Shown: piece after piece, positions 1-5,564 of the stretch
Position numbering within the stretch: position 1 is the stretch's first letter
Layout: the number at the start of each line of letters is the position of its first letter
DNA from: Thermodesulfobacteriota bacterium
GTDB taxonomy: Bacteria > Desulfobacterota > Desulfobulbia > Desulfobulbales > JBFMBH01
Length of the DNA: 51,498 nt
Direction: 5' to 3'
Assembly: GCA_040755095.1 (NCBI GenBank)
Contig: JBFMBH010000012.1
Location: forward strand, 1-51,498
Program-made: the position numbers and the translations under genes
The notes under the pieces: generated by a model
What the model was told of the DNA's origin: nothing
What the model saw: the letters and a program-made list of their open reading frames with translations, nothing else
Database searches by the model: none

Positions 1-1097
1 TGCTGGAAGATAGCCGCCACATCGATTTCGGACCGCTGGCTGAAGATGGGCTTGTCCGCGAGTCGGTCGAGGGCCCGAGTCACGCTGTCATCTCCTCGTC
101 CTTCTTCTTGATACTGCCGGCGCACGGCGTCCCGAGCTTCCTTAAGGCTCGGGCCCGCACGGTTCGCCTGACGGGCCATGCGGTATGCCTCGGTCAGGGC
201 CCTGTCCACGATCCCCTGCTGGCACCCACCCATCTGGGGGATAAAGGTGGCGAGGGTGCTCGAGAAGATCTCGGCGGCCAGGTCCGTATTCGCGTCCCGG
301 GGCAGATCGAATGGGTTTATGGGCAGCGGCTGCTCGGGTGGCCGAATGACGCGGAGCCCAGCCACGGAACGGAGAAATGGCTCCCCTGTCTGCCCTTTCG
401 CCAGATCACCCTTGTAGTCGAGGAGGATGAACCCGGTGGCAGGGGCGGCCGAGGCGATGGCGTGCAGAAGCCCCAGCAGCCCCTGGCTTTTGCCCTTGCC
501 TTGTGCGCCCGCGATGCGCAGGCTGGCCGAAGTATCCTGACCCTCTTCACGGTTGACAATCCACTTGACCGGTTCTCCTGTCGTCGCATCACGCCCAAGC
601 TCCACAGAAACCGGACCGGATGGCGGGAGGTCCGTAGCCTGAATGCCCCCTTCCATGGCAGAGACCAGACACGCGCCAAGCTCGCGCACCAGGCGACGGG
701 CGTCTCGGTGCATCCGGTCGTAGAGCGTGCCCAAGTGACGATAGCCCGCGTTGAGCGCCCGGCGCATCCGTGTTTGCGCCTCCTCTCCCGATCCGTCGAC
801 GGTGAGGACGGTGCTGAGATAGCGTATGCCCGGGAAATCAATGTGGCTAAGATCATGTTCGCCACCCCGGCTATCGTCGTCCGAGGCCTTTTCATACGAC
901 AGATGGAGATCCCAGCTCGCGGCGAGACGGCGAAGGGGGTGGTCGTCGTTGGCCCTGGCACCGCGGTCCGCAGCCAGGCCCAGAGCCAGAGCCAGTCGGT
1001 CACATTCATCGGGAGCGATGTCGAGACCAACGGCCAGTTGAGCTCGCAACGTCTGCGCCAGTCGACTGCCACGGATGCGGAACACCGGATCAGGCAT
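1..1097 (-). CDS. DndE-like domain fused to HerA/FtsK-type ATPase (3' end outside window)
   Basis: Partial gene; 365 codons are visible and the frame is still open at base 1. Residues about 1-75 (FRIRGSRLAQTLRAQLAVGL..., then a WDLHLSYEKA stretch) resemble DndE, the small DNA-binding protein of DNA phosphorothioation systems. After a linker comes a P-loop ATPase core with Walker A GAQGKGKS at 197-204 and Walker B FILLDYKGD at 223-231, of the HerA/FtsK pumping-ATPase type. The ATG at 1097 lies inside the 3' end of the DndD-like gene (8-base ATGCCTGA overlap), so the two are translationally coupled. In ordinary dnd clusters DndE is a free protein of about 110 residues, so this fusion is unusual. 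Base composition is less GC-rich than in the housekeeping genes from ribBA onward. Likely role: DNA translocation or recognition in a defence or DNA-modification system. The P-loop ATPase call is firm; the DndE call is moderate. Confidence 0.7.
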   Translation of the reverse strand, partial: MPDPVFRIRGSRLAQTLRAQLAVGLDIAPDECDRLALALGLAADRGARANDDHPLRRLAASWDLHLSYEKASDDDSRGGEHDLSHIDFPGIRYLSTVLTVDGSGEEAQTRMRRALNAGYRHLGTLYDRMHRDARRLVRELGACLVSAMEGGIQATDLPPSGPVSVELGRDATTGEPVKWIVNREEGQDTSASLRIAGAQGKGKSQGLLGLLHAIASAAPATGFILLDYKGDLAKGQTGEPFLRSVAGLRVIRPPEQPLPINPFDLPRDANTDLAAEIFSSTLATFIPQMGGCQQGIVDRALTEAYRMARQANRAGPSLKEARDAVRRQYQEEGRGDDSVTRALDRLADKPIFSQRSEIDVAAIFQ

Positions 1098-3297
1098 GGA
1101 CAGCCTCCGGACAGTCTATGATGTCCGTCTGCTCGCCACTGCCACCACGAATCATTTTCAGGCGTTGTGCCACCTGGTTGCGGATCGAGTAGCTGGGGTG
1201 GGCAGGGATTTCCTCTGGGGTGACGAGCAACACCATCTGGGCGGTGCACTTCGCCAGCATCTCGCGCAGGACGGCTTCTCGGTGCTCGGGATCAAGCACG
1301 CGTAACGGCGCCTCGATGACCATCGGCAAGCGTGCGCCCGCGGCCTCTCGGATCGCATGGACGAGGCAAAGGGCCAGAAGGTTGCGCTCGCCAGTGGAGC
1401 GACCGGCAGGCGCAGGATTGTCGTTCTTGTCGACCACGGCGTAACGATAGGTGCGCCGATCGACCTTCAGGCGGGCCAGAACATCGTGTTTGTGGGCGGT
1501 GCGAATGAGCATTTGCGAAGCCTCGATTTCGAGCCTGCTCACGCGCTCCTTAAGCATGTGATCGGCAATGGCGCCCAGCCCCTGGCCGGCGGCGTCGGCC
1601 AACCGGGATCGTTGTTCGATGTTGTCGATCTCATTCACCACGGTCGAGGCTCCCGGCCCTGCCGCTGTCAACGCCTCTCGCACCGACTCGAGCTCCCCGC
1701 CCGAGCGCTTGAGCTCTTCCCGCGCTGCTTGGAGCTTCTGCTCCAGGCCATTCTTGCGTTGTGAGGCCTCCGCATACCGTTCGATCCATGGCGTCTCCGC
1801 GACCGGGTACGCCAGGTCATCGATTTCCTGTTGGATCTCCCGCACACGCTCTGCCCAGCGGTTTCCACTATCCGCCTGCTGCAGGAGGCTGCGGAGCTTG
1901 CGGCCGGCGGCCTCTACCGGCTGTCGTAGGGACGCCAGACGCTCCTCCTGCCGCCGGGCCCGGTTTTGATCCTCGGTTGCGGGAATTCCTACGGTTTCGC
2001 GCAACGCTTCGAGGATCTCATCGTATGGCGGAGGCGGCCGGCGTACCCATGGGAAGCCAGCTCCCGAAACAGCCTTCGCGATCGCCGTAATGGTATCGTT
2101 TGTTCCTTGGCGCCAATCGGCCGACTTGCTGACTTGCGCGGTCGTGGGCGTAGGCCGAATCGAAAGCCCGATCAGAGCAAGCGGCAGCAACTCGGTCACA
2201 ATCTCATGGCGCTCCTGCTCGGCCCGTTTTTGCCTTTCTCTTGCACGTTCCAGTTCGCGGAGAAGGTTGTCCCGGCGTCGACGCTGCTCCGGCTGCCCCT
2301 TGCCGCTGTAGGTGTCGACCTCCTTCTGCGCCTGGCTCAACTCGCGCTCAATATCAATGATGGATTGCCGTTCGTCCGCTTCCTTGCGGCGCAGACGTTC
2401 CGCTGTCTCTTCAAGATCCCGCCGACGCCTCCCTTCCCTCTCCACCTCGTCCCGTCGTTGGCGAGCCTTCTTGCTTGTCTTGCGCGAATAGTCATCGCAC
2501 CACTTCGCAAGGTCGCGCAACGGCCGAATGGCGAGCGCGGTCTCCACGACGTCCTGGATAGGCGGAAGTTCTGTACCCTTTTGGCCGGACAACTTCTGTA
2601 CCACGCTGCTCTCCGCATCGAAGACGAAGTAGTCCAAGAGCTGTTTCGGAAACAGGGCCTCGAGCCACTGGGCGGCATCATGGCCATGCATCGGACGATC
2701 AGCCACTCGAACGGCGAGGTCATCCGCCCCCGAGCGTGCCCAGCCATTCCCCACCCGGTGATATTTTTGTAATCGGCGGATCTCAATCTGACTATACGCT
2801 TGCGAGCGAAATCGAAGGACGACCTTGACTTCGGCCTGGCGGCCAGGCGTGTCGGCATGGACGAAGTAAGGGATGTCCTCGCTCTCCCTTTCCCCTGCAA
2901 GCGCGAAGCGAACAGCGCGGACGAGCGCTGACTTGCCGTAGCCGTTGGGCGCCTCAATGAGAATCACTGGCCGAATGCTGTCCGACCGCAGATCGACGAC
3001 CACCTGCCTGAACTGGAGAAAGTTGGCCAGTTCGATGGCTTCGAGCTGCATTCCAGCTCGGTCTTCCACTGGCGCCGCTTTGGCCGCATCTCCACAGCTG
3101 TCCGTGGTGGTGCGCTGGGGCAGTCTTTGGTCCAGTGCCTCTTCAAGCAGGCGGGCGACGTCTGTCGCTGCACGGCGCGGGCTGTGAAGATCCAGTGCCA
3201 GCAGGGCATGGAGCAGATTGAGGGGCAAGTCTCTTGCAACCCACTCTTGTTCGGCTCGATCAGCCTCTTCCCTGGTCAGCCCAACGCTCGAACTCAA
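1090..3297 (-). CDS. DndD-like SMC/Rad50-type ATPase of a probable defence operon
   Basis: 735 residues. Walker A APNGYGKS is at residues 116-123 after a DndD-like beginning (MQLEAIELANFLQFRQ) at residue 83. A long charged coiled-coil region covers about 280-560. An ABC-type signature STGERN lies near 633, and a Walker B/D-loop MVIEAPLRVLDPEHR near 658. DndD proteins carry a similar (V/I)DTPLGRLDSxHR block; here the Asp-Thr pair is Glu-Ala. No CxxC zinc hook is visible in the coiled coil. The 82-residue N-terminal helical extension has no domain I recognise. The start is TTG, supported by GGGGAGG 10 bases upstream and by an in-frame stop just before it. That TTG overlaps the stop of an upstream remnant (TTGA). 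Expected role: nicking or ATP-driven DNA processing in phosphorothioation-like defence. No dndC or dndB accompanies it here. Confidence 0.7.
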   Translation of the reverse strand: MSSSVGLTREEADRAEQEWVARDLPLNLLHALLALDLHSPRRAATDVARLLEEALDQRLPQRTTTDSCGDAAKAAPVEDRAGMQLEAIELANFLQFRQVVVDLRSDSIRPVILIEAPNGYGKSALVRAVRFALAGERESEDIPYFVHADTPGRQAEVKVVLRFRSQAYSQIEIRRLQKYHRVGNGWARSGADDLAVRVADRPMHGHDAAQWLEALFPKQLLDYFVFDAESSVVQKLSGQKGTELPPIQDVVETALAIRPLRDLAKWCDDYSRKTSKKARQRRDEVEREGRRRRDLEETAERLRRKEADERQSIIDIERELSQAQKEVDTYSGKGQPEQRRRRDNLLRELERARERQKRAEQERHEIVTELLPLALIGLSIRPTPTTAQVSKSADWRQGTNDTITAIAKAVSGAGFPWVRRPPPPYDEILEALRETVGIPATEDQNRARRQEERLASLRQPVEAAGRKLRSLLQQADSGNRWAERVREIQQEIDDLAYPVAETPWIERYAEASQRKNGLEQKLQAAREELKRSGGELESVREALTAAGPGASTVVNEIDNIEQRSRLADAAGQGLGAIADHMLKERVSRLEIEASQMLIRTAHKHDVLARLKVDRRTYRYAVVDKNDNPAPAGRSTGERNLLALCLVHAIREAAGARLPMVIEAPLRVLDPEHREAVLREMLAKCTAQMVLLVTPEEIPAHPSYSIRNQVAQRLKMIRGGSGEQTDIIDCPEAVHA

Positions 3298-3452: not shown

Positions 3453-4691
3453 TCACGGTCCGCCGTCCGGGTCCTGCATCCGGGTCGGGATGAGGCCCAG
3501 CATGTGGCCGAGCTTGTCCTTCTTGCACTGGAGGTAGCGCAGGTTCTCGGGCAGGGGCTCGATCTCGATGGGCAGGCGGTCCACCACCTCCAGGCCGTAG
3601 CCCTGCAGCCCGACGATCTTCTTGGGATTGTTGGTGATGAGCCGCATCTTCTTCACCCCCAGGTCCCGGAGGATCTGCGCCCCCACCCCGTAGTCCCGCA
3701 GGTCGGGCTTGAAGCCCAGCTGCACGTTGGCCTCCACGGTGTCCAGGCCCTGATCCTGGAGGGCATAGGCCTTGAGCTTGTTGACCAGACCGATCCCCCG
3801 GCCCTCCTGGTGCATGTAGAGGATCACCCCGCAGCCCTCGTCGGCCACCATCTCCATGGCGGCGTGCAGCTGGGCGCCACAATCACAGCGCAGGGAGCCG
3901 AAGACGTCACCGGTCAGGCACTCGGAGTGTACCCGGACCATGACCTCTGCCTCGGGGGCGATGGTGCCCTTCACCAGGGCCAGGTGCTCCAGGTTGTCCA
4001 CGTCGTTGGTGTAGACCACGGCCGTGAACTCGCCGCCGTAGCGGCTGGGCAGCCTGGTCTCGGCGGCGCGGTGCACGAAGCTTTCGTTCCGGAGCCGGTA
4101 GGCCACCAGATCGGCGATGGTGGCGATCCTGAGGTCATGGGTGGCGGCAAAGGCCTCCAGGTCCGGCATGCGGGCCATGGTGCCGTCCTCCTTCATGATC
4201 TCGCAGATCACGCCGGCGGGCCGCAAGCCCGCCAGGCGGGCCAGATCCACCGAGCCTTCCGTCTGGCCGGTGCGCACCAGCACCCCGCCCCGGCGGGCCC
4301 GCAGGGGAAAGACATGGCCCGGGCTCACCAGATCGTCAGGCCGCACGTCCTCCCGCACCGCCACCTGGATGGTCCGGGCCCGGTCGGCGGCGGAGATGCC
4401 GGTGGTGACCCCGGTGCGGGCCTCGATGCTGACCGTGAACGCGGTGCCGTAAGGCGACTGGTTGTCCCGCACCATCATCGGCAGCCGCAGCCGCTCGATG
4501 TGCTCCGGGGTCATGGTCAGGCAGATGAGGCCACGGCCGTACCGGGCCATGAAGTTGATGGCCTCGGGGGTGACCATCTGGGCGGCCATGCACAGGTCGC
4601 CTTCGTTCTCCCGGTCCTCATCGTCCACCAGGATGATCATCTTGCCGGACCGGATGTCCTCGATGACATCCTCAATCCTGCTCACCGGCAT
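3453..4691 (-). CDS. ribBA: bifunctional 3,4-dihydroxy-2-butanone-4-phosphate synthase / GTP cyclohydrolase II
   Basis: 412 residues, normal for RibBA. The N-terminal half is DHBP synthase, with the acidic metal/substrate loop [11 protein letters not shown] at about residues 23-33; it makes the four-carbon riboflavin precursor from ribulose-5-phosphate. The C-terminal half is GTP cyclohydrolase II. It shows the zinc cysteines in [17 protein letters not shown], the HQEGRGIGL active-site loop and a [10 protein letters not shown] segment. Start chosen at ATG 4691 ([13 protein letters not shown]) with GAAGGAG 6 bases upstream; an open frame extends further 5' but is not protein-like. It follows ribE by about 60 bases and is the last surviving gene of the riboflavin block. 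ribH and nusB, which often follow, are replaced here by the defence operon. Confidence 0.96.
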
Positions 4692-4752
4692 GGCGGGCTC
4701 CTTCGCGAGTTGTCTGGCTTTGGTTGCGGGGGAAAGAACACCAGCGGTCGGC

Positions 4753-5406: not shown

Positions 5407-5445
5407 CAGCTGCCCCCTGGGGGAGCCAGTCAGCCCCCCTCCCAA

Positions 5446-5521
5446 CCTCCCCCCGCTGGGGGGAGGAGAGTTTTGCCCCTGTGCCGCACGAACTTCGACT
5501 CCCTCCCCCAGCGGGGGAGGG
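5446..5521 (+). repeat. pair of inverted REP-like palindromes between ribD and ribE
   Basis: Two GC-rich palindromes, cctccccccgctggggggagg-type at 5446-5466 and ccctcccccagcgggggaggg-type at 5501-5521, lie head to head in the ribD-ribE gap. Their flanks are also related in opposite orientation (a run of C with CCCAA/CCCCGG before each). This is the layout of a REP doublet/BIME. Each could fold into a strong hairpin in the rib transcript and either protect the upstream message or reduce read-through. Confidence 0.6.
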
Positions 5522-5564
5522 CCGGGGTGGGGGCCGGGCGCCACACCCTGCCGCCCCTGGTTTT

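Follow-up and report, generated by a model that had tools for sequence, protein, structure and literature searches.

The window (the whole 51,498-nucleotide stretch of DNA analysed here) is contig C12 of a draft Thermodesulfobacteriota genome of 4.52 Mb in 255 contigs (99.8% complete), and it starts in the middle of a gene. Its minus strand carries, in order, ribD, ribE, ribBA, a dndD-like ORF and then dndE::herA, a fusion gene that runs off the start of the contig (Table 1). A search with a profile of the fusion family located the missing C-terminus (E 2e-18) at the very end of another contig of this genome, C52. There the herA stop codon is followed by a 16-bp gap, an ORF of 287 amino acids, some 570 bases in which no clear gene was seen, a VapB-like/VapC pair, ribH and nusB. 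We infer the adjacency of C12 and C52 from the split gene and from the rib genes, as ribH directly adjoins ribBA in all 24 relatives in which the neighbourhood of ribBA allowed ribH to be placed. The alignment suggests that approximately 15–20 codons (about 50 bp) are unsequenced between the two contigs. If intact, herA would encode ~540 aa; being read across this gap, it could be interrupted there. The idea that a hairpin at the break caused the gap was not supported.

Table 1. Features of the island, its borders and related loci. Positions are those of the window unless a contig or locus is given.
Feature	Position	Strand	Remarks
ribBA	3453..4694	-	left island boundary; ribD-ribE-ribBA upstream, ribH-nusB after the island on C52
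DndD-family coiled-coil ABC ATPase	1090..3297	-	735 aa from TTG; TIGR03185 and PADLOC DndD
DndD core	1090-3051	-	653 aa from internal ATG at 3051, matches usual DndD start
DndD N-terminal extension	3052-3297	-	in-frame, 82 aa; TTG start behind GGGGAGG
DndE::HerA fusion, N-terminal 365 aa	3..1097	-	open at contig edge; C-terminus on C52
DndE domain (predicted), residues 1-149	651..1097	-	strand-helix-helix twice plus C-terminal helix; ~22-residue insert after first unit
HerA/DndH-type ATPase domain, first part	3..620	-	PADLOC DndH/mad8; Walker A and first acid strand
HerA Walker A GAQGKGKS	486-509	-	motif reading
Fusion, C-terminal 157 aa	G000:C52 24408-24881	-	fusion-profile match and translation
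VapB-like antitoxin and VapC (PIN) toxin	L024:17287-17950, contig C52	-	between Dnd-like genes and ribH; PIN Pfam 1.7e-8
~280-aa family members	L024:18531-19391; L029, L030, L063-L072	- (L024)	directly before SngB/BrxD-like ATPases (Shango/BREX-like)
DndE::FtsK-proper fusions	L048; L049 7834-9315; L050 8060-9574; L051 9054-10589		independent of HerA/DndH-type fusion

These genes form an island of ~6 kb between ribBA and ribH, within the riboflavin operon. The genes are tightly spaced, with dndD and dndE::herA overlapping by 8 bp (ATGCCTGA). The GC content of the island is 0.61–0.63, as compared to 0.69 in the rib genes and flanks, and at third codon positions it is 0.69–0.71, as compared to 0.89–0.90. 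The island is horizontally acquired, and its neighbours are ordinary housekeeping genes. No attachment-site repeats above 10–11 bases were detected at the island borders, and those of that length were taken as chance. Near the ribD-ribE junction, positions 5413–5534 of the window hold GC-rich imperfect inverted repeats with 36 nt arms, which resemble a dispersed intergenic palindromic element.

As judged by profile matches, the first island gene is predicted to encode, over its full length, a DndD-type ABC ATPase with a coiled-coil insert. The protein matches TIGR03185 at E 8e-54 over 631 of 650 positions, although its score of 183 of 246 bits is under the curated cut-off, and it matches the PADLOC models for DndD (E 5e-54) and PbeC (E 3e-51). 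The 82-residue N-terminal extension has a coding-like composition, is preceded by a good ribosome-binding site (GGGGAGG) and has no match in Pfam. Walker A reads APNGYGKS, the signature is RSTGE as compared to LSAGE/RSAGE in the other DndDs, and Walker B is VIEAPLRVLD as compared to I(I/V)DTPL.R(L/I)D; the CxC zinc hook is absent. Since the Walker B aspartate is replaced with glutamate and the signature is altered, the protein may hydrolyse ATP weakly or not at all.

Three lines of evidence, taken jointly, support a DndE domain, predicted to be a double ribbon-helix-helix, at approximately residues 1–150 of the fusion. Pfam DndE does not match the window fusion protein, and direct hhalign against DndE gave only a weak result; fusions of relatives, however, do match Pfam DndE (1.7e-9 in L009, 3.2e-9 in L014 and 5e-5 in L012). 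Furthermore, a profile of the fusion family with the window sequence included matches the archaeal DndE structure 7x4e (E 5e-4). Finally, an AlphaFold model of window residues 1–207, with relatives in the alignment, has two strand-helix-helix units and a C-terminal helix, the topology by which DndE is defined in the literature; confidence in the model is moderate (mean pLDDT 62, reaching 83–90 in the core helices). The best 8 Foldseek matches of the model among 350,542 PDB chains are all DndE (7x4e with prob 0.98, followed by 4lrv chains), with TM-scores by target of 0.60–0.68. The E-values of these matches are poor (0.18 and above), and we therefore rely on the three lines together. The original prediction had placed DndE at residues 1–75: the domain stands, while its extent has doubled and Pfam DndE misses it in the window sequence.

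The motor part of the fusion matches PADLOC DndH (E 1e-7) and mad8 (E 7e-6; 7e-10 for the C-terminal piece), with Pfam FtsK_SpoIIIE under the cut-off (E 0.001). The DndH match is limited to the HerA part of that profile (positions 1303–1505 and ~1557–1644 of ~1700), and the structure nearest to the family profile is DptH/DndH 7es4 (E 1e-32). While the window part holds Walker A and the first acid strand (FILLDYKGD), the second acid motif (IVAIDEAHNYL) and the sensor (SSQS) sit on the C52 piece, and the set of HerA motifs is complete once the pieces are joined. The predicted pair of a DndD-like ATPase and a DndE-HerA/FtsK fusion is thus real: both minus-strand ORFs are in place, with DndD and HerA recognised by profiles and DndE by the three lines above.

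The operon partner on C52, the 287-aa gene, belongs to a family of ~280-aa proteins that are helical in the N-terminal region and better conserved in the C-terminal half. Of 395 genomes of the phylum, about 20 encode the family, and in about 10 cases it directly precedes an SngB/BrxD-like ATPase, making it, on gene context, a candidate for an additional component of Shango-like systems. Searches against Pfam and PADLOC gave nothing above threshold, with no recognised fold or catalytic motif, and we found no published description of the family; matches of its members to MbeD and ToxA_N were sub-threshold and were dropped. The structural model of the 287-aa protein is of low confidence (mean pLDDT 58) and matched nothing in the PDB, a family profile returned only coiled-coil noise from the PDB and Pfam, and the profile found no match in viral contigs. 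In one lineage (L057-L062) the family lies inside a metabolic operon with genes for a 3-hexulose-6-phosphate synthase-like protein, an SIS isomerase and a ketopantoate reductase-like protein.

None of the island ORFs encodes DndA, DndB, DndC, DndF, DndG, a methylase or a restriction nuclease, and VapC is the only nuclease-like gene product of the island. Searches of the whole genome with TIGR03183 (dndC), PF01507 and a DndC protein returned nothing but a weak PAPS-reductase match, which proved to be a fragment of TilS. Such genome scans use a loose first pass that can miss genes (PF08870 missed the DndE of genome G036); as judged by these searches the genome-wide absence of dndC is strongly supported, if not absolute, and another part of the draft genome could still supply a modification enzyme. 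The predicted lack of DndB and DndC, originally read from the visible side only, now extends to both sides of the island and, within the reach of the searches, to the genome: the sequence beyond base 1, where partner genes were to be sought, holds the rest of the fusion, the 287-aa gene, VapBC and ribH-nusB, and no dndC. As far as sequence searches tell, neither the island nor the genome provides the DndC that a phosphorothioation system requires.

DndE was found in 10 of the 251 genomes of the class by a loose-first-pass scan that missed at least one (that of G036): seven in ORFs of ~500 aa, two free-standing and one cut by a contig edge. Two types of motor are fused to DndE, namely HerA/DndH-like (the window, L009-L012, L014 and L036) and FtsK-proper (L048-L051). 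In relatives the fusions usually come with dndC or, alternatively, with an operon for a type I-like adenine methylase, and the window has neither. The former set, dndC-dndD-dndE::motor, is present at six loci (L012, L014, L049, L050, L051 and, in Methylorubrum extorquens AM1, L100); two further genes follow in the operon of L049 and of L050, one for a 389-aa SMC-like ATPase and one for a ~290-aa protein. The latter, HsdM-HsdS-(RhuM or PDC-S02)-(Mrr_N-like)-DndD-DndE::HerA, is found in four genomes (L009, L010, L011 and L036; ~175-9508 in L009), with an HsdM composed of N6-Mtase and HSDR_N. It ties the DndDE-HerA core to type I-like adenine methylation and partially resembles MADS (mad2, mad5, mad8). 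A motif scan of 84,980 species genomes detected no close relatives of the window fusion, its only two matches (L022 and L023) being spurious, inside unrelated opposite-strand ORFs; by sequence, the window fusion is a very divergent lineage.

The DndE::HerA/FtsK fusions that Rakesh, Aravind & Krishnan (2024, PMC10853773) describe as HerA 'clade 3' lie beside a DndD-related ABC ATPase and belong, in that account, to some of the PT-modification systems. The same study describes DndDE pairs without dndC, possibly with other marks or mechanisms, and reads them, together with the capture of HerA, as counter-invader systems. Judged by predicted domain layout, with DndE and HerA/FtsK in one polypeptide beside DndD, the island is of the clade 3 type and shares its two-gene core, but it differs in lacking a PT gene and in the added 287-aa partner. 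The suggestion that the fusion and the dndC-less pair were novel is therefore overturned, since both belong to described systems (PMC10853773).

Canonical DndBCDE systems (e.g. L052, L053 and L101-L103) have the DndD family and the DndE fold in common with the island, but there DndE is free (~125–157 aa), dndC and dndB are present and a translocase is missing. With DndFGH, for which PT-independent action has been proposed, the island shares the DndH-type HerA motor of DndH/DptH, although it has neither DndF nor DndG, and the fused protein lacks the REase, SF2, TRD and inactive methylase domains. PbeABCD/CxC-DndE systems likewise combine a DndD/PbeC-like ATPase with DndE; the island, when tested for their features, showed no CxC motif and no HKD-SF2 helicase PbeA, and has the fused motor instead. 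While its HerA part matches mad8, the methylase (mad2), specificity (mad5) and kinase genes of MADS are lacking, and the resemblance to MADS is closer for L009 and L036. Finally, the island shares the neighbouring 287-aa family with Shango-like SngB/SngC loci, but has neither SngB nor SngC.

Sequence and structural model together present one tight operon for a DndD-type SMC-like ATPase, a DndE double-RHH::HerA/DndH-type translocase and a 287-aa partner. We put at about even the chances that the island is a compact, mark-free defence module built on the DndDE core and operating without phosphorothioation. Since the island encodes neither DndC nor a methylase or restriction nuclease, such a module would most likely work on DNA state or topology, by analogy with DndFGH or SMC-type systems, and not on a self-written mark. 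DndD dimers with DndE would scan DNA and hold it at particular sites; the fused HerA would form a ring that pumps or loops the bound DNA; this DNA, for example replicating or entering DNA, would thereby be marked as foreign; and to block it, the module would recruit or activate the 287-aa protein or nucleases of the host. A more specific form of this proposal, in which DndD, DndE::HerA and the 287-aa protein make up a self-contained, modification-free immune complex, with DndDE sensing DNA state and the HerA ring driving the 287-aa effector, is offered tentatively, as its likelihood is limited.

It is unlikely, though not strongly so, that the DndDE core cooperates with a different mark (methylation, for instance) whose writer is encoded outside the island. 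The same pair lies behind HsdM, HsdS, RhuM/PDC-S02 and Mrr_N-like genes in the four relatives above, and methylases are reported with CxC-DndE systems in the literature. The island itself, however, has no methylase, the methylase-linked DndE::HerA proteins are only ~27–31% identical to the window fusion, and the window DndD is only ~20–25% identical to the DndDs of relatives' fusion loci. The original suggestion that Dnd parts were borrowed for another DNA mark is accordingly unproven for the island, which encodes no modifying enzyme, while it looks right for L009, L010, L011 and L036 with their HsdM/HsdS. A role outside defence, in which a mobile element with VapBC as its stabiliser would use the SMC-like ATPase and the FtsK-like pump for chromosome or element maintenance, would fit the insertion into the rib operon, the atypical GC content and the flanking VapBC; we consider it improbable, as the island has no integrase, relaxase or replication gene and DndD/DndE/DndH-type domains elsewhere occur in defence loci. 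Most doubtful is the reading of the island as what is left of a phosphorothioation system, or as a part of one that acts in trans, with DndC lost or in an unassembled gap: while dndC stands directly upstream at the six loci with the same fusion listed above, here ribBA, 155 bp upstream, occupies its expected place, the 99.8% complete genome gave no match to DndC or PAPS_reduct (in scans that can miss genes), and the intact ORFs do not suggest an obvious pseudogene.

With the fusion itself already published (PMC10853773), what is new here is the bounded dndC-less case, the unusual 287-aa partner and the divergent DndD. Across the loci compared, DndE is joined to at least two kinds of motor, HerA/DndH-like and FtsK-proper, and at least three sets of partners accompany it. 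The role of DndD–DndE pairs without dndC is a published open question, for which the locus offers a clean case, with both borders visible, housekeeping neighbours and no modifying enzyme; it could therefore directly test whether the DndDE core acts without any DNA mark. Should the mark-free module prove to be the self-contained immune complex outlined above, the 'DNA-marking' Dnd core would here have been turned into a sensor-motor.
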